Below, one piece after another: positions 5,361 to 18,539 of a DNA stretch of 18,539 nt. Under the pieces are notes generated by a model. That model worked only from the letters and a program-made list of their open reading frames with translations. It was not told the origin of the DNA and searched no databases. Within the stretch, counting starts at the first letter, position 1; each line of letters starts with the position of its first letter. The DNA is from an uncultured Erysipelotrichaceae bacterium. GTDB lineage: Bacteria > Bacillota_I > Bacilli_A > RF39 > UBA660. The position numbers were made by a program, and so were the translations under genes. The DNA lies in NCBI GenBank assembly GCA_902767005.1, contig CACXFY010000077.1:1-18539 (forward strand), read 5' to 3'.

Positions 5361-5810
5361 ATGGAAGAGCATATTAAATATAAAATGTTATTTTCTTTAT
5401 TATTTATAGCACTAGTATTTATAGTTGTTGTTGTATTTGCAGTGGCAATTAAAACTGATAGGGAGACTCCTGTAAAGGAACCAGAAGATATTAGTGTTAT
5501 TGATAATAAGATATATGAGGAATATGAAAAAGGAACTAATTCTGAAGAAGTAAAAGATGAATATGTTTTAGATAATGGGGTATATTATTTAGATGATCAT
5601 GCAGTTATAAAATTTACGAATAATACATCTGATAAGAAAGCTCTTAATATATTGAGTGATTTTGCAGAAGCTTATGAATATAATGAAGAAGAAGATAGCT
5701 ATGAAGTTGTTTTAAAAAAGAAATATTCATATAATGATTTGATTAATTATTGTAAGTCTTTAACTAAAAGTTATTCAAGAATTATTAGTTGTGATATTGT
5801 TACAAAATAA
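5361..5810 (+). CDS. Small signal-anchored extracytoplasmic protein, function unknown
   Basis: The product has 149 residues from the ATG at 5361. The candidate starts GTG 5352 and ATG 5358 overlap or crowd the ribosome binding site AGGTGAG (5350-5356), so 5361 is preferred. A hydrophobic segment at about 9-30 anchors the protein. An acidic stalk (RETPVKEPED, then EEYEKGTNSEEVKDE) leads to a C-terminal alpha/beta domain of about 80 residues (YVLDNGVYYLDDHAVIKF onwards) with one cysteine pair at most. I recognise no family. It lacks the N-terminal module shared by the next three proteins. It is a single-gene unit: tRNA-Thr's terminator precedes it and its own terminator starts at its stop codon. 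A TATAAT at 5344-5349 lies too close to the start to be confidently its promoter. Confidence 0.7.
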   Translation: MEEHIKYKMLFSLLFIALVFIVVVVFAVAIKTDRETPVKEPEDISVIDNKIYEEYEKGTNSEEVKDEYVLDNGVYYLDDHAVIKFTNNTSDKKALNILSDFAEAYEYNEEEDSYEVVLKKKYSYNDLINYCKSLTKSYSRIISCDIVTK

Positions 5811-5905: not shown

Positions 5906-6613
5906 ATGAAAAATAAGAAGATGATTACATCAATAGTTATAGGTATAGTAGTATTGATTATTATTGCTACTGTAGTTATTAGTATTTTATTAGCTAGAAA
6001 GGATTTAAATACTTTTTCAGTAAAAAAAGAAAATATGTATGTTTATTTTGGTAGTGAAAGGTTTGATGTTAAGGGTAATATTACTTTAAATCATGACGGA
6101 GATGTTACTGATATTAAAATTGATGGTAAGAAAACTACTCTATATGGTGAACCTCTTTATTATGCCAAAGGTAATAAGTTGATATTGCCTGTTAATTATA
6201 ATTTTGTTTTTTATAAGACAGGTGTTCAAAAGAAAGTTCCATTTTTTACTAAATTAGAGAAGAAGTATGGAGATTATTATTTAGATAATAAAGATTTAAA
6301 ATATAAAGTAAATAATGGATTTTTATTTGATGGTAGTGATTATTATATATTTTTAAGTAATGCTAAAGTTAGTTTTGGTGGTAAAAATATAGATATATCA
6401 CCAATGAGTTTTGTTAATTATGTTTATGATACAAAAGATTTATTTATATACAATTATAAAACTGGCAAAATGAGCAGTTATCAGAATGTGAATGGAGATG
6501 TGTTAGTAAATAATAATGAATTTAAAGTTAATTTAAGTTCAGATATTATTATAATTAATAATAAGGAAAAGTTATTAATGAAGAATTTTGATTATTTAAA
6601 GAAATTGAAGTGA
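5906..6613 (+). CDS. Signal-anchored protein consisting of the locus-specific N-terminal module
   Basis: The product has 235 residues from ATG 5906, placed by AGGTGA (5896-5901); an in-frame GTG at 5888 lacks a ribosome binding site. A basic start (MKNKK) and a strongly hydrophobic segment at about 7-30 anchor it in the membrane, with about 205 beta-rich residues outside. The segment from residue 142 (DGSDYYIFLSNAKVSF, then ISPMSFVNY and a DLFIYNYKTGK strand) aligns by eye with residues 146-206 of the giant at 6618 and 147-206 of the giant at 15562. This protein therefore looks like the free-standing form of their common base. It ends in TGA, four bases before the next start, so the two are probably co-transcribed and translationally coupled. 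No known family is recognised. A partner or assembly role for the giants is inference. Confidence 0.75.
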   Translation: MKNKKMITSIVIGIVVLIIIATVVISILLARKDLNTFSVKKENMYVYFGSERFDVKGNITLNHDGDVTDIKIDGKKTTLYGEPLYYAKGNKLILPVNYNFVFYKTGVQKKVPFFTKLEKKYGDYYLDNKDLKYKVNNGFLFDGSDYYIFLSNAKVSFGGKNIDISPMSFVNYVYDTKDLFIYNYKTGKMSSYQNVNGDVLVNNNEFKVNLSSDIIIINNKEKLLMKNFDYLKKLK

Positions 6614-6617
6614 TTTA

Positions 6618-9600
6618 ATGAAAAAAGTTGTTGCAGTAATTACAATTTTATTAATAATATTAGGTGTTGTTTACTTTAATAGCTATAAAAATATGCGTAC
6701 TTTTGATATGGACGGATATATTTTTACTTCAGATAATATTACTAAGAATTTGGTAAATGGTGATGATAAAACAACTAAAATAGATTATTCAAAAGTAAAA
6801 TATTCGGACTATTTATATAAAGGAAGAGGAAAGTATTTTATTGGTGATAGAAGAAAAGTAGGAGTTAATTTAGATTATCCTGTTGTTTCTAAAGATAGTA
6901 AAACGCTATTATTATTATCAGATCAATATAAATTGATTGATACTAAATATAGAAAGACTAATTCTTATAGTAATTCTTTAATAAGTGACAATAAGCTATT
7001 TAATGAGAATGACTATGAGAGAGCCGATAATATTACTTATATTTTTATAGATTTAGGTAATAGTATTATAGTTAATTTAAGTGAAATTACTATTGAAACT
7101 ACTAAGAAGCATACAATTCCTGTTAATTCTTTTATCTCTTTTTCAGAAGAGCATTTAAGATATTATTATATGGATAGTGGTAGATACTTTTATAAAGAAA
7201 TTAGAGGTTTAGATAAAAATGCTACTATAGAGTTTAATAATAAAAAGATGGGGTATTTAGAATTTTTAGAGAGACTTGGTTTGTTTCTTGAAGAAGAAGA
7301 GGAAAATGTAGATGTTGAATTACCACCTGAAGTAGTACAAGAAGAAGAGCAAGAAGAAGTTAAGAATACTGAAGAAACAAAGGGTTCAGGAGATTTAGAT
7401 TACGTTAAACCAGAAATTACTTTTAGTGGTCAAAGTGCTAATATATATTCTGTTTCTGGAAAGTTAGAAATATATGATCCAACAGGAAGAATTGTAAAAT
7501 ATCCAACTTTTGAATTTTATAAAGGAAAGACTCTTGTCTATAGAAAGACTTTTGTTACTTCTGATAGAATTGAAGCTAAAGGATTATTCCCTAATACAGA
7601 ATATGATGTAATAGGTTATTTCCATTATAAAAATGAAGAGGGAAAAGAAATAAAACGTGAATTTACTAGTTTTAAAATAGCAACTAAGGATATTTCTGGA
7701 TTAGAGAATATTGATTTTAGTATTGATAAAATAGTGCCATATTCTAATCATGCTGAATTTAATGGTATGAAACTTAATAATAAGAGTACTGATGAAGTTT
7801 TAAAGGGAGTTAAGAAAGTTATTCTTAAAGTAGGCTCTAATAACTATCAATTATCAACTGGTATAGTTAGTAAATTAGTTAGACTTGAAAGTTATGATTA
7901 TACAACAGGTAAATCTTTAAATAGTAATACTAAATATGACATTAAATTAGAATTTTATGATGTATCTGGTAATTTATTAAAACAAAGTAATAATAATTAT
8001 AGTTTTAAAACGACTAAGAAAGCTCCTAGTGGTAATTTGTCTGTTAAGAGTAGGAGTATAGATAAAGCAACTTTATATTTTGATTTAACTAATAAAGACG
8101 ATGTAAATATTACTAATATGAAATATGTTGTTTATGATAATGAAAAGAATATTGTTAAACAAGCTAGAATTAGTGATATGACTATTCAATTAGATAATTT
8201 ATCTCCTAATGAAGTATATTCTGTTGCTTTAATGGGTGATTTTGATTTAGAAGATGGTAATGGAATAGTTAGGGAAAAAGTAATAATAGATGGTAAATTT
8301 ACTACGGAACCATTATCGACTCTTGGTTATGTTAAATTGGATTTTTCTAACATTGTTACTGATACTAATTCAGCTAGTTTTAATGTTACTATTTCTGATG
8401 ATACTAATAGTATTCTTAAGAGTTTGTTAACAGGTATGACTATTGTATTAAGAGATTCTGATGGTAATGATAGTGTTAAAACGATAGTATTAACTAGTGA
8501 ACAATTAGAGAGAATGAAAAATGGTGAACTATTACCTTTTACTATTAATGGATTAGAGTCTAATCATACTTATTATTTTGAATTATCAAGTGTTGTTGCT
8601 TTAGGTAATAAGGAAAATAATATTATTACTAATTCTAATGTTGTAACTATTAAAACAATGAAATATGAAGCTGAAGTAGATGTTATTAATAAGTTTGTTA
8701 CTGAAAGCGTAATTAATTTTGATGTTAGAGTAGATGATTTAGATGACGCTATACAAAGCAAAAGAGTTTTGCTTGAAGTAAGAAATAATTTGAATGTTCT
8801 TGTATTATATGAAGAAATAACACCAAATACTGATTACAAGAATATATCTTTGGAGAAATTAGCTAAAGATACTACTTATACGTTTAAGTATATTGTTGAA
8901 GAGTATAATACTGGTTATACTAACAGTACTTTTAAAACAAATTATGTTTTATATAGTGAACAGATTGTTACTACAGAAGGACTATCTGGTAAAGTTGAAG
9001 TAGATAGTTTATTAAAACAGATAACTAGTAAAAATATATTTGATATTGATAATAGTAGAAGATGGAAAACAGCTGGTAATAGAGAGCCAAGTAGTAGAAA
9101 AGTAAATAAGACTGATAATACTATTACTTTATCTGCTAAAAATGGATATAGAACTTATTCTTATTATTTACAAGAATATGCTGGTCAGAAAGTTACAGTA
9201 AGTTTTAAGATTAAATATAAAAATAAAAATTATACTAAACCAGTTTATTTGACTGATAGAGGTTCTAATAATAGTTATTCGGCAAATGATCAGATTAAGA
9301 ATGTTACAGCGGATGATTATATATCATATAGTAGGACTTTGACTATTAATTCATCTAGTCCATATATAAGTTTTCATATAATCGAAGTTGATGGCGAAAA
9401 TGAAACGACTGAAGTTGTAATAAAAGATTTACAGATTGAAGTAGGTACTAGTGCTACTAGTTATGTTCCATATAAAGAAAAAGATAATTATATGGGAACT
9501 TTCTTAACTACTTTAATAGATAAGAAACATGAGATAGAACAAGATGATTTCCATTATTTTTTAAGATACTATAAAGATAATGAATTGATTGATACTGTTC

Positions 9601-12600
9601 AATTTGATTTTAATGATACCTATAAAGTAGAAAAAGAAATGTCTAAACATGAGATTTATCCATCTAGTGATTATGTTATTAAATTGAGTATCAGAAAGAA
9701 TGTTGTGGGTGTGTCTTCTGATAAGAGATATTACGATTTAGCGACGCTTAATTTTACTTCTGATGATGAGATTAGAACCATTCATAATATTAATGAATTT
9801 TATGCAATGCATACATCGGGATTCTACTTGGTTTCAGAAGACTTAGATTTTAGAAATCAAACTAGAGTTATTAATTCAGATGTCAATTTTAATGGAATTG
9901 TAGATTTCCAAGGACATAAAGTATATCGTGATACATCTACTAATGGAACAACTGGTGTGTCTTCTAGATATTTGATTTATAGACTTGGTAGTAATGGAAT
10001 TCTTAGAAACCTAGATGTTCATTATTATTTTGATGGTTATGAAATAAATGATTATAATGGTTTAACTTGGTCTAATTACGGAACAATAGAAAATGTTATG
10101 GTAACTTTAGAACAAGGCAATTCAAGACCTAATACAGTTATTTCGTTAATTACAAGAGAAAACTATGGTATAGTTAAAAACTTTGTTGTTAATTCTAAAG
10201 AGTCATTAAGTTTAGCTAGAGATGGTGCTTTGGTTGTCTTTAATAATTATGGAACTATTAGTGATGGATATGTTTATGGTAAAGCTATAGATGCAAGATT
10301 TAACAATCCAAGTTTAAGTAATAAATATGTTGGTGTAATTGCTCGTTATTGTGCAAACAACTCATATATTGCTAACATTTATTCTTTAGTAGATGTTGAT
10401 TTGCTTGAAGGTTTATCATCAACAACATTCCAATATGAAGTTGGTAATATTACCGGGCCAATCAACAGAACAATTATTAGAAATGTTTATACAAATTCTA
10501 GTGGTAAAAATAGAAATAATTCTGTTGATGTTAATATTTATTCTGCTTCGGCGATTAATAGAAGTAATGTTTATTATGCTACGAAAGATATTTATTCAGG
10601 AGCATTCTCTAATAAGATTGCACCTAATGCATTGAGACAGGAACAATTTCAAGAAATACTAAATGCTAATAATGCATTCGATATTAGTAGTTATGTAAAA
10701 TATGGTTATTATCCACATCTTATTTGGCCAGATGTTATGCCAAATCAAGAATATATTGAATTGCCAAAGGAAAATGATGGTATAATTGATTATTTATCAA
10801 TGGAAAATAGAGTAGAATTTGATAATGAGACAGTAGAAGCTACTTTAATATTTGATAATATTGGATTTGACTATATTACAGGTTTAACTTTTTCAGATAA
10901 TTTACATGCTGAAATATTATCTCAAGAAAATATTGATGGTAAATCAAAAGTACGTGTTAGATTTTCAAGCCCTCAAAAATATGTTACACAATATAGTCTA
11001 ACAAGAATAAAACATGAGGATTCATCTGGCCGTCCTGGAACAGATGTAACTTATGGTGACAAAGAACGTGTTGTAGAAGTAGAAATGTATAGAAATATTA
11101 ATAGTATGGCTGATTTTAGGACTATGCAAAACAATCTAGCACAAAACTTTAAATTACAGACGGATTTAGATTTTAGTAATTTAAATGAAAATTTAGGTAC
11201 TTTTACAGGTAGATTTGATGGTAATGGTCATACAATTAGGAATATTAGACTTTCTGGTAAAGCATTTATTACCACTTTATCAACAAATGGTACTGTAAAG
11301 AATTTATTTGTTGAAAACTATACAAAAGATGGAGCTTCTACAAGAGGTGGATTTATAGCGACAGCAAATGGTAATTCTAATATTGTCAATGTACATTTGA
11401 AGCATGTATCAATCACTGATAGTGATCAAAGAATAGGTGGATTAGTAGGTTATACAGATGGTGCTTTGATATCAAATTCTTCAGTTACTGATGTTCACAT
11501 TTATCAAAAGGATAAAAATAATGTTAAGTACTATGGTAGATATGGTGGATTTATTGGAGAGAATAATAATACGGTAATCCAAAACTGTTATGCACAAGAT
11601 GTTAATATTGAAATATTATATGGTTCTGGAACTTATGGTATTGGTGGATTTGTAGGTCGTCATAATTCTGGATATATCCAAGATAGTTATGTTCAAGGAA
11701 CAATAAATACTAATCAACAAGAAGTTGGTGGTATAGCTGGATATAGTTCTGGATATATTGAGAGAGTAATCGATGTTGTTGATATATATTCTCAACAGGA
11801 TTCTGTTGGAGGAATTGTTGGTTATTCAACCAACGATAACATTTATAATACGTTAGTAATAGGTGGAGTTTATACATCTAAAAACGCTATAAATCAAAAC
11901 AGAACTATTGGTAACAGAATTGCGGTTAACTCTAATTATGCTTGGAATGAACAATTAGTTAATGGTTTAAATGCTAATTCCGCTAATGGTGATATTTTCT
12001 TAACATCAGAGGAGTTAAAATCAGCAACTACTTATGATTCGTTAATTAAGTTTGGTAATCAATTTTCTTTGGATAAACTATCTAATTCTAAAGGTCGAAA
12101 TATTATTCCTAAATTAAAGTATTTAGCGAGCGATGAATTATTACCTAATCAGAAAGATATAGAATTCTATGTAAGAGATTTTAAAGTTCGTGATATTGCG
12201 ATTAGTAGATCGTTTAGTGACGCTACTATTCAGATATTTATTCAAAATCCAGATAACTATCAAGTTAAAGATTTAAAAGTAGATGGATTTAATATTATAA
12301 GAGTTAATAAGAATATTACAGCTAATGGGGAAACGCTATATGAAATATATGGTACTCCTGATAAATATTATGATAGTTATTTAATTAGTAAAATTACTTA
12401 TAATGATGGTACTCAAGATGTATCTATTAATCCTTCAGCAAAAATTGATGTTTCTTTCTACAAAGATATAGGAACATTTGAGGATTGGCAAAATATAGAT
12501 GGTGATGTTTATGAAAACTATCGTCTAGTTGCTGATATCGATTTTGCTGGAAAAACTAATGTTAAATCGCGTGTTAGTTTTAATAGGTTAGAAGGAACTG

Positions 12601-15491
12601 ATGAAGGTCATACATTAAAGAACATTACATTAACTGCTTCAGCTCCAAATGTTGGCTTAATAGATACTGTTGCGGCTAATATTACTAATGTTAATTTTGA
12701 AAATATTACTATTAATAGTACTTATAATACGCCGTATACTGGAATTATAAGATTCTTAAATGGAACGATGACAGATGTCAACTTTAGTGATATTAATATT
12801 ACATCTAAAGGAAGTTATACTGGTATAGTTGCATATAATCAGTCACCGGATATTAAAAGAGTAAGTATTGATACAGTAACAATGACAGGTGTTGATTATA
12901 TTGGTGGTTTTGCAGCTTATAGTAGAACCTTCGATATTGCTTATTTATCAGGAACAAATATTAATTTAACAGGTACTTCACAAAGAGTGGGTGGCTTGAT
13001 TGGATCAATTGATACTGTTAATACAACATATGTTACGATGTTTAATTTAACTGTTGATGGAGTTACAGTTAAGGGTGGTAACTATGTTGGTGGTATCTTT
13101 GGTTATGGTAGTGGTAGTTATATGCGAGCGCATGATGTTCATGCCACCGGAGCTAGTTATGTAGGTGGATTTGCTGGTAACGGCTATGTTACTTATTCTA
13201 ATTATGGTTATATATCTGATTCTGAGGTTACGGGAAGTGGAGATAACATAGGTGGAGGATTTGGATATAGTTATGATTTAAGATATTTCTATGTCGATAA
13301 TGTAAAGGTAACCGCAACTCGTCCTAACGCTAACAATTATGTTGGTGGTTTATCAGGAAGAAGTTCATATACAAGATATTATTCTGGTGTTAAAAACTCA
13401 ACTATTGTTAATGCAGGTGACCAAACTGGAGGACTAACTGGTAGATTAGAAAACGCTGGTATTCAACGTTGTTATGTATATAATACAACTGTTACAGGTG
13501 CTAAATATGTTGGTGGTTTAGTAGGATATCACTCTAGTACTAGTAGTTCAGTATATTACAGTATTAGTAATGCAACTGTTAAGGCAACTGTTGATTATGC
13601 TGGTGGAATAATTGGTTATTTGGATAATATTAATACCACATCAGCTACAAATAAAATATATTTATATCAAAATATTGTAGCCAATAGTGATATAACTTCG
13701 GCTGGAGAAAGAGCTAGTTCTATGGCGCCTAACAGTAATAAACTTCCATATGATGGACATTTCTATAAAAACTTTATAGTAGCAAATGTTCATTCAGCAT
13801 CAAATGATAAATCACGTTTCTTTGTAGGTAATAGTAATGATAATACTTATTCATCATATGAAAATACGGCTGGTTTACGAGAGATTAGAGTTTATGAAAA
13901 CTCAACATTTAATGGTGAAAGTATTAAGAACTATACATATCCATCAAATGTTACAAAATATAGTTATAATAATTTAAAAGTACAAGCTACTTATAAAGAA
14001 ATATTAGAATCATATTTTAACTATACAACTTTAGCTAATGGAGAATTCCCATTCTTAACTTATGAGTGGAATGATATTGGATATCAACATTTCATGTTAC
14101 CTGAGGAACCAGTTAATATGGGTAATTCTGGATCAATTGGAAGAGTGGTTGGTAGTATTCCTAGTTATCCTTTAGTTAATGTTTATGCAAGTGATGTTGA
14201 TAAGATTAATGTGGAATTTGATAAAGTAATGAATGGTATAAAGTTTAAGATTAATGGTACTGAATATTTATTAGATAGATTAACTTATACTTTCTATTAT
14301 GACTTTACTAAAGATTTTGATATAGAAATTAGTGATGGTATTAATACTACAAAACTTGATTATAAAGCAGATGATTTAATACAAACTTCTTCTGTTATTG
14401 ATAATAATTATTATTATATTGAGAACGGTAAAATTAAGAGTAATGATGATGTATCGATAAAAGAAATGAAGAATGATAATTTCCAATATCGTGTTCTTAA
14501 ACTTGCGAAAAACAATAATAATAGTCATAAACCTATAAATATATATGAAGATAAAATACTGTTAGAAAATCATAATATTTATAGTATTCCTGATAAGAAG
14601 GTTATTGAGAATTCTATTAAAAATTTTGAGTTATATAGTTCTACTCCGATATATAGTTTCCAATATGGAGATAGTACAATAGATACTTATTATAATTATT
14701 CAATAATCGATGGTAATTATATTTCTAAACAAGTATTTGTAAAAGAAGGAAATATTGAAACAATTGATTCTTCTTTAGATGCTGTTAAAGATAGCGTATT
14801 AATTGATAAGTATAATGGTAATAATCATTTAATATATTTAGGTACAGATGGTAAATTACATAGTTTAAAAGATAATATTAGTATTCCAAGGAGCTTTGTT
14901 AATAAAAATATTAAGGCTATATCTACGGATATTTATAATAATAGTGATATTATATTTGTTTCATATGAGAATGGTGACTATGTAGTATTTAATTATCGTA
15001 ATGGAAAAATAATAGAACAATCTATGAAGAATACTAGTTCAAATGTTTTGTCATATTTTGGAACACATTTTACTAACGATAGAGTAGCTAATAATAGATA
15101 TAATGATTATAAAGAATCTTTGGACTTAATTAATAAGTTGAAAAAGAAGAGTACTGATAAAGTATTGAATAATGATGAATCAAATGAAAAAGCAAGTTTA
15201 TTAGAAGATACGTATATAAGTACTTACAATTCTGCTACTAATAAGTATGAAGTGTTTAAAATTAATAGTGCTAATGATTCTAATAATGCTGTATTATCAA
15301 CACAATTAAGTAGTAATTCTACATCTAATATGATTGATAATAATGTTGTATTATATAATTATTATATTGGTACAGAAAAGAGAAATCAGACAATTTTATT
15401 AAGTGTTTTAGGTATAGTTGTTATATTATTTTTAGGTATAGCAACTGGTGTAATTATGCTTAGATTTAATATTGGAAGGCATTTTAATTAA
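6618..15491 (+). CDS. Giant membrane-anchored GLUG-repeat surface protein (2957 aa), probable adhesin
   Basis: An N-terminal membrane segment (3-20) leads into the module shared with the 5906 protein (to about 222), then an acidic linker (225-259, mostly Glu). Fn3-like domains follow, each with an L-x-x-[NDS]-x-x-Y turn; the Tyr residues lie at 329, 440, 534, 652 and 754, with a sixth at 1019. A carbohydrate-binding-like domain (about 805-955) ends in QIEVGTSATSYVPY. Three beta-helix blocks begin near 1054, 1493 and 1948, each opened by a DLDF/DIDF strand. The second and third carry 5 and 10 GLUG motifs (GGLVGY type). A C-terminal region (about 2520-2915) precedes a membrane helix at about 2925-2949 and the tail RFNIGRHFN. 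No LPXTG or lipobox is seen. Adhesion or glycan binding is inferred from the domains. The ribosome binding site is a modest GAAGTGA overlapping the previous stop. Confidence 0.85.
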   Translation: MKKVVAVITILLIILGVVYFNSYKNMRTFDMDGYIFTSDNITKNLVNGDDKTTKIDYSKVKYSDYLYKGRGKYFIGDRRKVGVNLDYPVVSKDSKTLLLLSDQYKLIDTKYRKTNSYSNSLISDNKLFNENDYERADNITYIFIDLGNSIIVNLSEITIETTKKHTIPVNSFISFSEEHLRYYYMDSGRYFYKEIRGLDKNATIEFNNKKMGYLEFLERLGLFLEEEEENVDVELPPEVVQEEEQEEVKNTEETKGSGDLDYVKPEITFSGQSANIYSVSGKLEIYDPTGRIVKYPTFEFYKGKTLVYRKTFVTSDRIEAKGLFPNTEYDVIGYFHYKNEEGKEIKREFTSFKIATKDISGLENIDFSIDKIVPYSNHAEFNGMKLNNKSTDEVLKGVKKVILKVGSNNYQLSTGIVSKLVRLESYDYTTGKSLNSNTKYDIKLEFYDVSGNLLKQSNNNYSFKTTKKAPSGNLSVKSRSIDKATLYFDLTNKDDVNITNMKYVVYDNEKNIVKQARISDMTIQLDNLSPNEVYSVALMGDFDLEDGNGIVREKVIIDGKFTTEPLSTLGYVKLDFSNIVTDTNSASFNVTISDDTNSILKSLLTGMTIVLRDSDGNDSVKTIVLTSEQLERMKNGELLPFTINGLESNHTYYFELSSVVALGNKENNIITNSNVVTIKTMKYEAEVDVINKFVTESVINFDVRVDDLDDAIQSKRVLLEVRNNLNVLVLYEEITPNTDYKNISLEKLAKDTTYTFKYIVEEYNTGYTNSTFKTNYVLYSEQIVTTEGLSGKVEVDSLLKQITSKNIFDIDNSRRWKTAGNREPSSRKVNKTDNTITLSAKNGYRTYSYYLQEYAGQKVTVSFKIKYKNKNYTKPVYLTDRGSNNSYSANDQIKNVTADDYISYSRTLTINSSSPYISFHIIEVDGENETTEVVIKDLQIEVGTSATSYVPYKEKDNYMGTFLTTLIDKKHEIEQDDFHYFLRYYKDNELIDTVQFDFNDTYKVEKEMSKHEIYPSSDYVIKLSIRKNVVGVSSDKRYYDLATLNFTSDDEIRTIHNINEFYAMHTSGFYLVSEDLDFRNQTRVINSDVNFNGIVDFQGHKVYRDTSTNGTTGVSSRYLIYRLGSNGILRNLDVHYYFDGYEINDYNGLTWSNYGTIENVMVTLEQGNSRPNTVISLITRENYGIVKNFVVNSKESLSLARDGALVVFNNYGTISDGYVYGKAIDARFNNPSLSNKYVGVIARYCANNSYIANIYSLVDVDLLEGLSSTTFQYEVGNITGPINRTIIRNVYTNSSGKNRNNSVDVNIYSASAINRSNVYYATKDIYSGAFSNKIAPNALRQEQFQEILNANNAFDISSYVKYGYYPHLIWPDVMPNQEYIELPKENDGIIDYLSMENRVEFDNETVEATLIFDNIGFDYITGLTFSDNLHAEILSQENIDGKSKVRVRFSSPQKYVTQYSLTRIKHEDSSGRPGTDVTYGDKERVVEVEMYRNINSMADFRTMQNNLAQNFKLQTDLDFSNLNENLGTFTGRFDGNGHTIRNIRLSGKAFITTLSTNGTVKNLFVENYTKDGASTRGGFIATANGNSNIVNVHLKHVSITDSDQRIGGLVGYTDGALISNSSVTDVHIYQKDKNNVKYYGRYGGFIGENNNTVIQNCYAQDVNIEILYGSGTYGIGGFVGRHNSGYIQDSYVQGTINTNQQEVGGIAGYSSGYIERVIDVVDIYSQQDSVGGIVGYSTNDNIYNTLVIGGVYTSKNAINQNRTIGNRIAVNSNYAWNEQLVNGLNANSANGDIFLTSEELKSATTYDSLIKFGNQFSLDKLSNSKGRNIIPKLKYLASDELLPNQKDIEFYVRDFKVRDIAISRSFSDATIQIFIQNPDNYQVKDLKVDGFNIIRVNKNITANGETLYEIYGTPDKYYDSYLISKITYNDGTQDVSINPSAKIDVSFYKDIGTFEDWQNIDGDVYENYRLVADIDFAGKTNVKSRVSFNRLEGTDEGHTLKNITLTASAPNVGLIDTVAANITNVNFENITINSTYNTPYTGIIRFLNGTMTDVNFSDINITSKGSYTGIVAYNQSPDIKRVSIDTVTMTGVDYIGGFAAYSRTFDIAYLSGTNINLTGTSQRVGGLIGSIDTVNTTYVTMFNLTVDGVTVKGGNYVGGIFGYGSGSYMRAHDVHATGASYVGGFAGNGYVTYSNYGYISDSEVTGSGDNIGGGFGYSYDLRYFYVDNVKVTATRPNANNYVGGLSGRSSYTRYYSGVKNSTIVNAGDQTGGLTGRLENAGIQRCYVYNTTVTGAKYVGGLVGYHSSTSSSVYYSISNATVKATVDYAGGIIGYLDNINTTSATNKIYLYQNIVANSDITSAGERASSMAPNSNKLPYDGHFYKNFIVANVHSASNDKSRFFVGNSNDNTYSSYENTAGLREIRVYENSTFNGESIKNYTYPSNVTKYSYNNLKVQATYKEILESYFNYTTLANGEFPFLTYEWNDIGYQHFMLPEEPVNMGNSGSIGRVVGSIPSYPLVNVYASDVDKINVEFDKVMNGIKFKINGTEYLLDRLTYTFYYDFTKDFDIEISDGINTTKLDYKADDLIQTSSVIDNNYYYIENGKIKSNDDVSIKEMKNDNFQYRVLKLAKNNNNSHKPINIYEDKILLENHNIYSIPDKKVIENSIKNFELYSSTPIYSFQYGDSTIDTYYNYSIIDGNYISKQVFVKEGNIETIDSSLDAVKDSVLIDKYNGNNHLIYLGTDGKLHSLKDNISIPRSFVNKNIKAISTDIYNNSDIIFVSYENGDYVVFNYRNGKIIEQSMKNTSSNVLSYFGTHFTNDRVANNRYNDYKESLDLINKLKKKSTDKVLNNDESNEKASLLEDTYISTYNSATNKYEVFKINSANDSNNAVLSTQLSSNSTSNMIDNNVVLYNYYIGTEKRNQTILLSVLGIVVILFLGIATGVIMLRFNIGRHFN
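11430..11880 (+). repeat. GLUG repeats, second beta-helix block (5 copies)
   Basis: Within the giant protein, about residues 1605-1754, five tandem copies of the GLUG pattern occur: RIGGLVGYTD, RYGGFIGENN, GIGGFVGRHN, VGGIAGYSSG and VGGIVGYSTN. Each is followed by a strand of the type I-x-N-S-x-V. GLUG motifs are known in bacterial surface proteins and IgA1-protease-like proteins and are expected to form coils of a right-handed beta-helix. Confidence 0.85.
12810..13630 (+). repeat. GLUG repeats, third beta-helix block (10 copies)
   Basis: About residues 2065-2338 hold ten copies: YTGIVAYNQ, YIGGFAAYSR, RVGGLIGSID, YVGGIFGYGS, YVGGFAGNGY, NIGGGFGYSY, YVGGLSGRSS, QTGGLTGRLE, YVGGLVGYHS and YAGGIIGYLD. 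Tyr-Val or Tyr-Ile before the glycines is the commonest lead-in. The spacing varies from about 22 to 34 residues, so the coils have loops of different length. Confidence 0.85.
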
Positions 15492-15503
15492 AATGCCTTT
15501 TTT
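15476..15503 (+). terminator. Intrinsic terminator overlapping the end of the giant gene
   Basis: AAGGCATTTT (15476-15485) pairs with AAAATGCCTT (15490-15499) around AATT and is followed by T residues to 15503. The left arm encodes the last residues of the protein and the stop codon (15489-15491) lies within the hairpin. It separates this unit from the next giant gene. Confidence 0.9.
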
Positions 15504-15524
15504 GCTGTTTTTTTTTGAAAAAAA

Positions 15525-15533
15525 TGTTATAAT
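15525..15533 (+). promoter_or_regulatory. Extended -10 promoter of the second giant gene
   Basis: TG-T-TATAAT is a perfect -10 with the extended TG. The -35 position (CTGTTT, 15505-15510, 17-base spacer) is poor. It lies 28 bases upstream of the ATG at 15562. Confidence 0.65.
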
Positions 15534-15561
15534 TATTGTATAGTCTGGGAGAGTAGATATT

Positions 15562-18539
15562 ATGTTTAAGAAAGCGTTATTGATAATAGTACCAATTATA
15601 ATTGTTATTGGTTTAATTTTTGGTTATGGAATTATTTCTTATAACTCAAAATATACAGTTTTTCAAGCTGATGGTCATATTATTGCTAAAAATAGTAAGG
15701 CCACTACAGAGAAGATGTTTTTTGATGACTCTACTAAGTATAAAACTGTAGGTGATGAAGTCTATATTGAATCAAAAGACAATAAAACTACTGTTATTCC
15801 TACAGAGACTTTTATTCATTATAACGATGGTTCTATTTCTACTTTCGCTAAGAGTGTAGTTTTAGATTTAAATGAAATGAATAAAGAAAATTATAAATAC
15901 TATAATGTTTTCTCTGAAACTATATTTGTAAAAGATGGTTCTAATTATAGTGTTAATTATTTAGATAAAAAGTTGATTTTTAATAACTTTTTATTAAAAA
16001 TTAATGATCAGAAGTTTATGATTGTTGGATCTTCATTAAAACTAAAAATTGGTGGAGTAGAGAAGACTTTCGATAATAATTATTTAGAGATTACTTATTT
16101 GGAAGGAAATCTTATTAAAGTTGAGAATCAAGGAGTTACTTATCAAAGTGTTGGTGATGATATTTCAGTAGAGATAGGTGATAAAGTAGTCGTTGATTTC
16201 GCTGGTAAAAATGTTTATAAAGATAATGATAGAAAATTATCTTTAAGTGAAATTACTGTTAATAGTGATGATAATATTCAAATAAATGCTGAAGATAATA
16301 AGTCTATTACTGGAGAGCCAACTAATCCTGAAACAAAAGGCAATAATGGTTCTAATGGTAGTAACGGAAATAAGAAGGGGACTAAAAAATATACTAAAGA
16401 AGAATTACCTTCTATGAGTTCTGGTGTTATAGATACTGATAGTGATGTTGAAGAAATAATTGAGACAAATGCAAGAATTAAAGATGCTGAATTTAAAATT
16501 ATTAATTTTGATGTTACTGCTAACAGAATTAGAGCTGAAGTACAAATTGTAGATACTGATAGTGTTTTACAAGGAGATATTAATATAAAAATTATTGAAT
16601 CAAGTACTAATAAGGTTGTTTATGAAACTACTGATGATACTGGTTCTAGTATTATTAGTATTGAAAATGATGTTTTGATTCCTGAAACAAATTATATTTT
16701 AGCAATTAATTCTGATTATAGAAAAAATGATGTTATTTATAACAAGGACTTTATTCAAAAGACATTTGTTACTGATGCAGTTGGTGTTAGTTTAGAAAAA
16801 TATTTTGTTTCTACTAGAGAATTAGAAGTTGTTTTGAAAAAGAGTTCTTATTCAGATGTAGCTAGTGTTAATGTAAATTTGGAAGATAACGCTGGTAATA
16901 CATTAAAAACAGTTAATGTTGTTTTAGATCGAGAAGAAAATATTGTTTCTTTCGATGAATTAAAGAATGATACTAATTATAAAGTAAGAGTATATGACTT
17001 TGTTTATAATGATTCTATTATTTCTGATAATTTTACAATTCTAAAGTCATTTGAAACATTAAAGAAAAAACCGGTTATTGGAGATCTTTCTTTCACAATT
17101 GATAAAAAAGAAGGAAAGTTCAATATGCAAATGAACAATGTTATAGATTCAGATGGCGGAATTATTAGTTATAAATATGAAGTATATGATTCTAGAACTG
17201 TTTCAGAAGAAGGGGCTTTACCAATTACAGTTATTGAAAAGAATAATAATGCATCTGCTTCAGTAAAAGTAGATGGTAAGAATCTTGTACGCGGTGTTCC
17301 ATATGTATTTAGAGTAGTTGTTACTTTTAATGATAATGAAAAAGAATATGATTATGTTACTGAATTCAATGAAGAAGTAATGAAATTAGATGGAGTTGTT
17401 TTCCCAACTGTAAAGTTTAATAAAGGTACAGTTACTTTTGAAAGAATAGCTGGTGAAATTGAAATAATTGATGAAGGAAATGCTATTGATATTAATGGTG
17501 GTTCAATTATTACTATTTCTTATACTGATTCTGTTGGTAATACTAATACATTTACTTCTAGTGGTACTTTAAAAATACCTTTTGATATTAATAACTTAAG
17601 AAGTAATGAAACATATTCATTTGCTGTTACAGCGCCTATTGATTTACAAGATGATAATCCAGTTGTAGATAATTGTTACATAGGTAGTGTTACTATTAAG
17701 ACTGAGGATCCTAATCCTTTCAAGATGTCATTTAATGGTATTGAAGATCCTTCATATGCATTTGCAATTGATGCACAAATTACTAGAGGTAATTCAGGTA
17801 ATACAGAGTTAGAAGCAAATACTTTAACTGGATTTAATGTTAAGTTATATAGTGGTCGTAATACTACAGGAACACTTGTAAAAACTGTTAAATTAGTTGA
17901 TAAAGATCTTGAACCATATTCTAGTGAATTACGTACACTATATTATGATAGACAATTTAGATTGGATCCAGCATTCTTTGATATGAGAAACAGTGACTTT
18001 AAGAGTGAATATTATACTATTGAAGTTACTAATGCTTATGATTATACAAAGTTTATGAATTCATTACCTATAGAAAATAATGTTATTACAGTAAAGATAG
18101 AAAATGCTTTACCTGATATGCCTGCTGATCCAGAAGATGCTGTAGAAGTGTTAGCTATTAGAAATGCTGATATGGCTCTTGAACAACAAAGAGAAGATTT
18201 GAATGATAGTACGGTAGTTGGATATAAATTTAGAGCTATTTACAATAATGAAGCTAAGTATGCACAAAAGATAACATACAAGATTCATGATAGTGATGGT
18301 ACAGTTATTGATACTATAACTTATAATGTACCAAATACTGGAGTTATTGATTATAGCGAAGTATATATTGGAGATGGTATTGCATCTAACAGTAGTGACG
18401 GATCTTTGAGACGTGGACAACCATTCTATATTACTTATGAAATAGATTTGGATACTAACTATGATGGCAATAAAGATATTACTTATCCATTATCTGGTGT
18501 ATTAAAGAGTGTAATGATTGCACCTAAAAGACAAAAACC
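15562..18539 (+). CDS. Second giant signal-anchored surface protein, Fn3-like repeats (partial, 3' end beyond window)
   Basis: From ATG 15562 the frame stays open to the right edge (992 codons, no stop), so the protein is longer than 992 residues. The ribosome binding site GGGAG (15547-15551) lies ten bases upstream. A basic start (MFKK) and membrane anchor at about 5-27 precede a module resembling the 5906 protein and the start of the 6618 giant; both giants share an early F-x-x-DG-x-I strand. A low-complexity Asn/Gly/Ser/Lys linker (about 251-282) separates it from an array of beta domains. Fn3-like turn tyrosines occur at 378, 473, 581 and 685 (for example LKNDTNYKVRVYDF), close to 100-residue spacing. 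No GLUG motif, catalytic motif or sorting signal appears before the edge. It has its own promoter. Adhesin or surface-fibre function is inference. Confidence 0.8.
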   Translation, partial: MFKKALLIIVPIIIVIGLIFGYGIISYNSKYTVFQADGHIIAKNSKATTEKMFFDDSTKYKTVGDEVYIESKDNKTTVIPTETFIHYNDGSISTFAKSVVLDLNEMNKENYKYYNVFSETIFVKDGSNYSVNYLDKKLIFNNFLLKINDQKFMIVGSSLKLKIGGVEKTFDNNYLEITYLEGNLIKVENQGVTYQSVGDDISVEIGDKVVVDFAGKNVYKDNDRKLSLSEITVNSDDNIQINAEDNKSITGEPTNPETKGNNGSNGSNGNKKGTKKYTKEELPSMSSGVIDTDSDVEEIIETNARIKDAEFKIINFDVTANRIRAEVQIVDTDSVLQGDINIKIIESSTNKVVYETTDDTGSSIISIENDVLIPETNYILAINSDYRKNDVIYNKDFIQKTFVTDAVGVSLEKYFVSTRELEVVLKKSSYSDVASVNVNLEDNAGNTLKTVNVVLDREENIVSFDELKNDTNYKVRVYDFVYNDSIISDNFTILKSFETLKKKPVIGDLSFTIDKKEGKFNMQMNNVIDSDGGIISYKYEVYDSRTVSEEGALPITVIEKNNNASASVKVDGKNLVRGVPYVFRVVVTFNDNEKEYDYVTEFNEEVMKLDGVVFPTVKFNKGTVTFERIAGEIEIIDEGNAIDINGGSIITISYTDSVGNTNTFTSSGTLKIPFDINNLRSNETYSFAVTAPIDLQDDNPVVDNCYIGSVTIKTEDPNPFKMSFNGIEDPSYAFAIDAQITRGNSGNTELEANTLTGFNVKLYSGRNTTGTLVKTVKLVDKDLEPYSSELRTLYYDRQFRLDPAFFDMRNSDFKSEYYTIEVTNAYDYTKFMNSLPIENNVITVKIENALPDMPADPEDAVEVLAIRNADMALEQQREDLNDSTVVGYKFRAIYNNEAKYAQKITYKIHDSDGTVIDTITYNVPNTGVIDYSEVYIGDGIASNSSDGSLRRGQPFYITYEIDLDTNYDGNKDITYPLSGVLKSVMIAPKRQK

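Follow-up and report, generated by a model that had tools for sequence, protein, structure and literature searches.

Giant surface proteins encoded in a conserved operon with an F-type ATPase lacking a recognisable ion path in uncultured Bacilli

The subject of this work is a stretch of 18,539 nucleotides from an uncultured Erysipelotrichaceae bacterium (contig CACXFY010000077.1), called the window below, which carries adjacent genes for three membrane-anchored surface proteins, named here A, B and C, the last two of them giants. In related genomes these genes form part of a conserved operon that also encodes an F-type ATPase in which no ion path can be recognised. The coupling of ATP to ion flow through the c and a subunits is the defining feature of rotary ATPases. 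The observations on the present operon are its gene content, its conservation, the intact catalytic motifs of the enzyme, the loss of the carboxylate from the c subunit, the undetected a subunit, and the similarity of the modules from which the surface proteins start. Our favoured explanation, held with moderate confidence, is a rotary motor that is driven by ATP, has ceased to move ions and acts on the giant surface proteins, such that the cell may use this ATPase as a motor instead of making ATP. More tentative, and in our estimate slightly short of an even chance, is the specific proposal that the c ring has been kept and ion transport given up, yielding a pure ATP-to-torque machine which turns or cycles giant surface proteins across the membrane in walled relatives of the mycoplasmas.

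The continuation of the operon is seen in the related genome G001, where the locus L001 has the upstream genes of the window and A-B-C in the same order (identity of 86% for scpA, 90% for scpB, and 78%, 66% and 71% for genes 3234, 3835 and 5361). After C follow the genes D-c-E-alpha-gamma-beta-epsilon-X, among which alpha, beta and gamma were identified by Pfam and NCBIfam, and the 81-residue, two-helix c matched ATP-synt_C (PF00137, Pfam) with 30.8 bits against a cut-off of 24. The other products are D (475 residues), E (244 residues), an epsilon-like protein of 83 residues and X (178 residues, about four helices); c, E, epsilon and X were compared with the subunits of ordinary atp operons of related genomes. 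In profile comparisons the first half of E matched b (E=1.9e-4), its second half matched delta (E=2.2e-4), and the 83-residue protein matched epsilon (E=6.1e-5). By profile, a peripheral stalk of b and delta is present as the apparent fusion E. No b or delta match was found by Pfam in the four E proteins scanned, and the sequence search of E against PDB returned nothing (best E-value 0.3; coupling factor 6 at 0.98). The membrane helix of E is preceded by no basic residue and followed by five, which places the soluble part probably in the cytoplasm, where a stator has to be. Ordinary atp operons have the same gene order, c-(b/delta)-alpha-gamma-beta-epsilon. The idea that X is a diverged form of the a subunit was rejected, since hhalign gave E=0.16 and neither Pfam, at or above the cut-off, nor PDB returned a match; its similarity to b (E=0.0031 over 36 columns) was attributed to chance likeness between membrane segments. 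Another giant with one helix, of 2778 residues, is encoded in G001 about 6 kb after X (in L033).

The distribution of the operon was traced with a profile of D. Among 385 genomes from the same order as G001, 29 gave strong matches (E below 1e-47). These 29, together with G002, G003, G015, G027 and G033, make up the 34 carriers on which the counts below are based; 15 genomes with weak D matches (E from 3e-6 to 1e-3, most over the first 40-70 positions only) were left out. Some of the weak matches fall near the N-termini of 856-969-residue frames (G113, G139, G165, G167, G302, G343, G351 and G381), which may be further module proteins or may show mere membrane-helix likeness. D and the ATPase genes are adjacent in 25 of the 34 carriers, and contig ends cut the region in two (G224 and G310). 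The order varies, as C-D-c-E-alpha-gamma-beta-epsilon-X-A-B or C-D-A-c-E-alpha-beta-epsilon-X-gamma, and homologs of A adjoin the ATPase genes, standing inside their run (D-A-c in G278, G243 and G364) or directly after it (X-A in G214 and G285). In 33 of the 34 carriers there is one c subunit over the curated PF00137 cut-off, and PF00006 likewise passes its cut-off exactly twice, in alpha and in beta, in 33, with one match a fragment in G272 and one frame with a stop in G310. The F1 of the operon is the sole F1 detected in 33 carriers. The alpha frame is long in some of them, with 604-642 residues in G002, G015, G027 and G033 and 1416 residues in G088.

The c subunit is altered. All 33 c sequences align without gaps to ordinary c subunits from the R-N-P-E loop, which is kept, to the final N-P, and the position of the carboxylate is occupied by Ser in 13, Ala in 10, Thr in nine and Met in one; an acid (Asp or Glu) is found in helix 2 in none of them (0/33). 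Ordinary c subunits from 14 related genomes have Glu at this position in 16 of 16 sequences. An acid occurs in the stretch scored as helix 1 in three of the 33 c subunits, in G214 at the start of the helix and in G102 in an N-terminal extension. The a subunit (PF00119) was sought in three carriers, then in G015, G027 and G033, and then in the 29 strong carriers within a survey of 385 genomes, and gave no match in the 34 carriers. Six genomes of that survey matched, none a strong carrier; the PF00119 and D surveys are taken as the same sample, since their handles agree as far as they are listed. In the carrier G169 one contig accounts for 1,256,952 bases of a genome of about 1.3 million, so that missing data are an unlikely cause of the absent a subunit there. 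In a search covering F-type enzymes, an a subunit over the cut-off was observed in five of 385 genomes of the order.

The catalytic sites, by comparison, are preserved. With fragments of 380 or fewer residues dropped, the P-loop and the catalytic Glu of GER are present in 28 of 28 beta subunits, and the P-loop and arginine finger in 32 of 32 alpha subunits. Judged by these motifs, the enzyme looks active; judged by its sequence, the c subunit would be unable to bind an ion in the usual way and the ion path would be lost. Two genomes, G042 and G053, were considered as holders of a second motor on account of a 676-residue alpha frame and were rejected, as their clusters are ordinary, with an a subunit and with Glu in c. 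Each has two F-type clusters (L041-L044, L141 and L142), one with delta and alpha in the single 676-residue frame, and the c subunits of both clusters keep Glu.

A distant version of the operon occurs in G038, a genome of the class-level sample whose alpha is 39% identical. Its order is 713 aa - 1735 aa - 800 aa - c - 315 aa - alpha - gamma - beta - epsilon-like - 156 aa - 3969 aa (numbers of amino acids, aa, for the remaining products), where the 156-residue protein has four helices and the 3969-residue giant carries one helix at each end, as B does. In the c subunit of G038, Phe replaces the carboxylate and helix 2 is free of acids. The 800-residue protein carries the module of D (hmmsearch E=8e-17) and also matches C (3.4e-4); the A profile fits the start of the 3969-residue giant in register (hhalign E=0.002), and the match of this giant to B is weak (0.042). 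The 1735-residue protein matched A with 5e-6 when its helix was included and 0.016 when it was not, and C with 0.025; the 713-residue protein matched A with 0.0054 but out of register, from which it follows that single values of this size are no proof. The contig of this operon uses TGG for Trp and has open frames of up to 3969 aa.

The surface half of the operon is what the window itself contains, and its features are as follows:
5906..6613, plus strand: protein A, 235 residues, an N-terminal membrane helix and a strand-rich module, nothing more.
6011..6574, plus strand: module of A, residues 36-223, delimited by the strands of the AlphaFold2 model, with profile links.
6618..15491, plus strand: protein B, 2957 residues.
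6687..7274, plus strand: module of B, residues 24-219, from the AlphaFold2 model and the B-C and A-B profile matches.
15405..15461, plus strand: predicted C-terminal membrane helix of B, residues 2930-2948, from hydropathy.
15562..18537, plus strand: protein C, first 992 residues, the window ending inside the gene.
15643..16275, plus strand: module of C, residues 28-238, from the A-C, B-C and C-D profile matches, which exceed all 36 controls.
5361..5810, plus strand: 149-residue protein with one N-terminal membrane helix, directly preceding A here and in G001.

B comprises an N-terminal membrane helix, the module, a Glu-rich linker, a long outer part with GLUG motifs (PF07581, E=1.5e-6; its 28.7 bits pass the curated cut-off of 20.5) and a C-terminal membrane helix, a helix being present within the last 70 residues in 98 of 114 relatives of B. 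C has an N-terminal membrane helix, the module, an Asn/Gly-rich linker and a fibronectin-like domain (fibronectin type III, E=5e-6); its full length is 1728 residues in P0033, which is identical over the part in common with the window. A, B, C and D each begin with a few basic residues, followed by one helix and then strand-rich sequence, and before the helix A, B and C have two or three Lys or Arg and neither Asp nor Glu. Such a basic, acid-free start suggests that the module lies outside the cell. The window has a low G+C content (22-31%), and its plus-strand run of the 149-residue protein, A, B and C comes after scpA and scpB. The 149-residue protein, for which tblastn gave 71% identity over 150 positions in L105 of G001, is a possible extra component.

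A sequence-only reading of the window had proposed that A and the N-termini of B and C share one unnamed membrane module, that this module is a common base presenting different outer parts, and that it is the best candidate there for an undescribed system. The residue positions on which it relied are exact (DGSDYYIF at 142, LGNSII at 146, INDQKF at 147, PLYY at 83 and DYPVV at 86), as are the F-x-x-DG-x-I motifs just past the anchors of both giants (FDMDGYI at 29 and FQADGHI at 34), and the common plan of a basic start, one membrane helix and about 190 strand-rich residues was recovered in all three proteins. The structure predictions that it had called for are consistent with it: AlphaFold2 confidently modelled A and the N-terminus of B in similar terms, A (51 sequences) as a helix and 22 short strands, with a predicted local distance difference test score (pLDDT) of 93.1 and a predicted template-modelling score (pTM) of 0.87, and the N-terminus of B (42 sequences) as a helix and 21 short strands (pLDDT 88.1, pTM 0.78; block means of at least 95 pLDDT over residues 61-220). 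Foldseek and VIA searches with both models gave no clear PDB match above noise, the weak rows including beta-propellers, sliding clamps, LolA and the CPAP G-box.

Profiles of the four modules, taken without their membrane helices, were compared pairwise with hhalign against controls consisting of 36 profiles cut from the remainder of the B, C and D proteins. The matches C-D (E=3.7e-4, in register), B-C (E=2.1e-3 over 45 columns, out of register) and A-C (E=7.6e-3, in register) scored above all 36 controls; A-B (E=0.066, in register), A-D (E=0.1) and B-D (E=0.099) did not. Merged profiles were then built from C, D and one G038 sequence, and from A and one G038 giant. These gave E=5.5e-4 over 171 columns for (C+D)-A, and (A+C)-D reached E=9.2e-4 over 157 columns, the best control standing at E=0.024; (C+D)-B, with E=0.054, remained at the control level. 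Addition of the bridging G038 giant to the profile of A improved A-B to E=3.4e-3 over 114 columns, in register. This giant occupies the place of B but was itself chosen by its match to A, and the gain is therefore not independent. The A-B alignment had a strand agreement of 0.74, which was reached by none of 76 registers shifted by 3-40 positions (best 0.72); a shift of +1 gave 0.76, and shifts of 7-8 gave up to 0.69.

Common descent of the modules of A, C and D is, in our judgement, highly probable on these grounds. For all four together we regard it as likely but less so, because the A-B gain is not independent. The chief alternative is convergence of strand-rich stalks, which we think unlikely though worth keeping in sight: the individual E-values range from 4e-4 to 8e-3, A and B on their own reach 0.066, (C+D)-B is at the control level, and the strand period lets false registers score well. 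Convergence does not readily account for the matches among A, C and D, which score above every one of the 36 controls and, starting close to the membrane helix, stay in register across most of the module, nor for the likeness of the high-confidence models of A and B. The module claim is probably right, albeit for a remote relationship that is weakest for B. C does pair with its neighbours by profile, although the by-eye register proposed for it was about one strand off the computed one, and the number of module proteins rises from three to at least four with D. A common base under different outer parts agrees with the profiles, the two confident models and, more weakly, G038, where however the 713-residue protein matches A out of register. 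The suggested search of further genomes did find the module beside giant frames in relatives and in G038, but strong matches to B were confined to 11 of 385 genomes, each of which also belongs to the strong D carriers. No further strong match to B appeared in 395 class-level or 295 phylum-level genomes, and one match was weak (9.5e-5). A set of 104 clusters (P0060-P0163; 2007-3747 residues) has a B-like N-terminus, 27-33% identical, for which no genome placement was found. As to the undescribed system, the case is stronger than that reading could know, given that the operon runs on into an altered F-type ATPase.

Taken with the ATPase genes, the window would supply the surface half of a membrane machine powered by ATP. 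In the mechanism that we propose, F1 would hydrolyse ATP and turn gamma, epsilon and c, the last of which could in principle form a rotor ring, and E, probably with the four-helix X, would act as the stator that holds F1 still. Since the usual mode of ion binding is closed to c and the search for an a subunit found none, this turning would do no ion work; and since the remaining conserved partners are the anchored module proteins, we propose that torque passes through the membrane to A, B, C and D and so to the giants. The related strand-rich modules would form a base around or above the ring, and the giants would be moved, swept or cycled, performing mechanical work at the cell surface such as attachment, movement along a surface or ligand capture. 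That c forms a ring and rotates, how the proteins lie in the membrane, that the ring touches the modules, what work is done and how it is coupled to the giants are all inferred.

One alternative reading of this gene set is a static, ATP-regulated anchor or assembly platform made of F1 and c, serving export, folding or turnover, with no rotation for work outside. Every part for membrane anchoring is indeed present and module-based surface proteins lie in the same operon, but a pure anchor would have no need of conserved gamma, epsilon and c (in which helix 1 is rich in Gly and the loop is polar), or of intact catalytic motifs, and we consider this improbable. Comparably doubtful, and in our view a little more so, is a diverged ATP synthase or ion pump in which X replaces a, ions take an unfamiliar route (for instance by way of the backbone or of Ser/Thr), and the surface genes are mere neighbours. 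This would fit the atp-like gene order, the score of G001 beta, which exceeds the cut-off for ordinary F0F1 beta (478.1 against 462.9 bits), and the place of X as a multi-helix membrane protein within the operon. It is countered by the c subunits, all 33 without an acid in helix 2 where the ordinary relatives have Glu throughout, by the want of any match between X and a, and by the 380 of 385 genomes of the order with no a over the cut-off, which indicate that living without one is usual in that order. The last possibility, that A-D are adhesins lying beside a functionally unrelated ATPase in a compact genome, would suit the lack of adjacency in six of the 34 carriers and the absence of B from many, but is very unlikely in view of the set standing together in 25 carriers, the similar run in G038, and the placement of A within or directly after the ATPase genes in several genomes.

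Several points tell against the rotary-motor reading. The window ends inside C, so that the ATPase genes are outside it, and their presence in its own organism is inferred from relatives. D and the ATPase genes are apart in G065, G088, G146, G209, G272 and G352, and in the D carrier G194 no ATPase was found; the link between surface proteins and ATPase is hence not absolute, and B was found in just 11 of the 29 strong D carriers. The carrier counts come from genomes whose completeness and kinship are unstated. An a subunit too diverged for Pfam could still be encoded. In G038 a PF00119 match lies on another contig (C25:5646-6257), where three TGA interrupt the frame; it may come from foreign DNA or belong to a second ATPase. 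Also in G038, the 315- and 156-residue proteins, having no match to the E or X profile, were placed by position. In A and D the 15 residues past the helix are as basic as the start, and the outside location of the module is for this reason only a prediction. Finally, penicillin-binding-type transpeptidases were found in 10 of 10 carriers tested, so that the carriers are probably walled and a moving apparatus must pass the cell wall; the giants may be long in order to reach through it.

The closest functional parallels are in the mycoplasmas, which according to published reports have two F1-like clusters, Type 2 driving the gliding of M. mobile and Type 3 needed for the MIB-MIP system (PMC12994834, PMC3369863, PMC11864180). 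The Type 3 cluster, whose F1-like X0 ATPase has been proposed to drive surface proteins across the membrane, encodes F1 alpha, beta, gamma and epsilon besides the ordinary synthase, in many species beside surface-protein genes. It adds a protein of 12 helices, a small cytosolic one and a membrane protein of 87 kDa; no c subunit is described among its seven proteins (PMC3369863, PMC12994834). The present operon differs in having a recognisable c, an anchored b-delta-like fusion and giants with a related base, and hydropathy indicated no 12-helix membrane protein among its genes, X having about four helices. In the G1-ATPase of M. mobile (Type 2; PMC11864180, PDB 9io5) an F1 has likewise been made into a motor for large surface proteins, and a b-delta fusion has been suggested as the origin of its GliD, E here appearing to be such a fusion too; the gliding motor, however, is a twin, carries an extra N-terminal beta region and belongs to a wall-less cell (PMC11864180).

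The subunits of G001 fall below the curated Type 2/Type 3 (MMOB/MSC) cut-offs, with 387.7 against 600 and 312.9 against 520 for alpha, and 409 against 570 and 392.6 against 850 for beta. G001 alpha is also below the cut-offs for ordinary alpha (434.7 against 554 and 404.7 against 484.5), beta alone passing its ordinary one as given above. Among the best 60 of 146 matches of the operon beta to solved structures, G1 beta was the lowest F1 beta (323.5 against 336-398 bits). G1 alpha (272.8) scored above several ordinary alphas with no such gap, so that the closeness to ordinary synthases comes from beta only. By analogy the operon would work like the mycoplasma motors, yet it is not classed as one of them. 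With F1Fo ATP synthase it has in common alpha, beta, gamma, epsilon, c, relatives of b and delta, and an atp-like order; it departs from it in a c without the carboxylate, an a that was not found, b and delta that are apparently fused, and an epsilon of about 80 residues consisting of the N-terminal domain only. B resembles GLUG surface proteins (PF07581) in its motifs but opens with the module and has a membrane helix at either end; the GLUG motifs by themselves say nothing about a motor. Neither this operon nor bacterial c rings that lack the carboxylate came up in the titles and abstract openings of the open-licence literature searched.

If the proposed mechanism is true, it would show that the rotor can be decoupled from ion flow and reused as a mechanical motor, and the motor type of F1 would extend beyond the mycoplasmas, with an Fo part not described in their clusters. 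The kept c and the anchored b-delta stalk would then represent either an independent invention or an intermediate toward the gliding and MIB-MIP motors of mycoplasmas, whose origin would become testable. It would also provide a possible function for the giant surface proteins of an uncultured group of bacteria.

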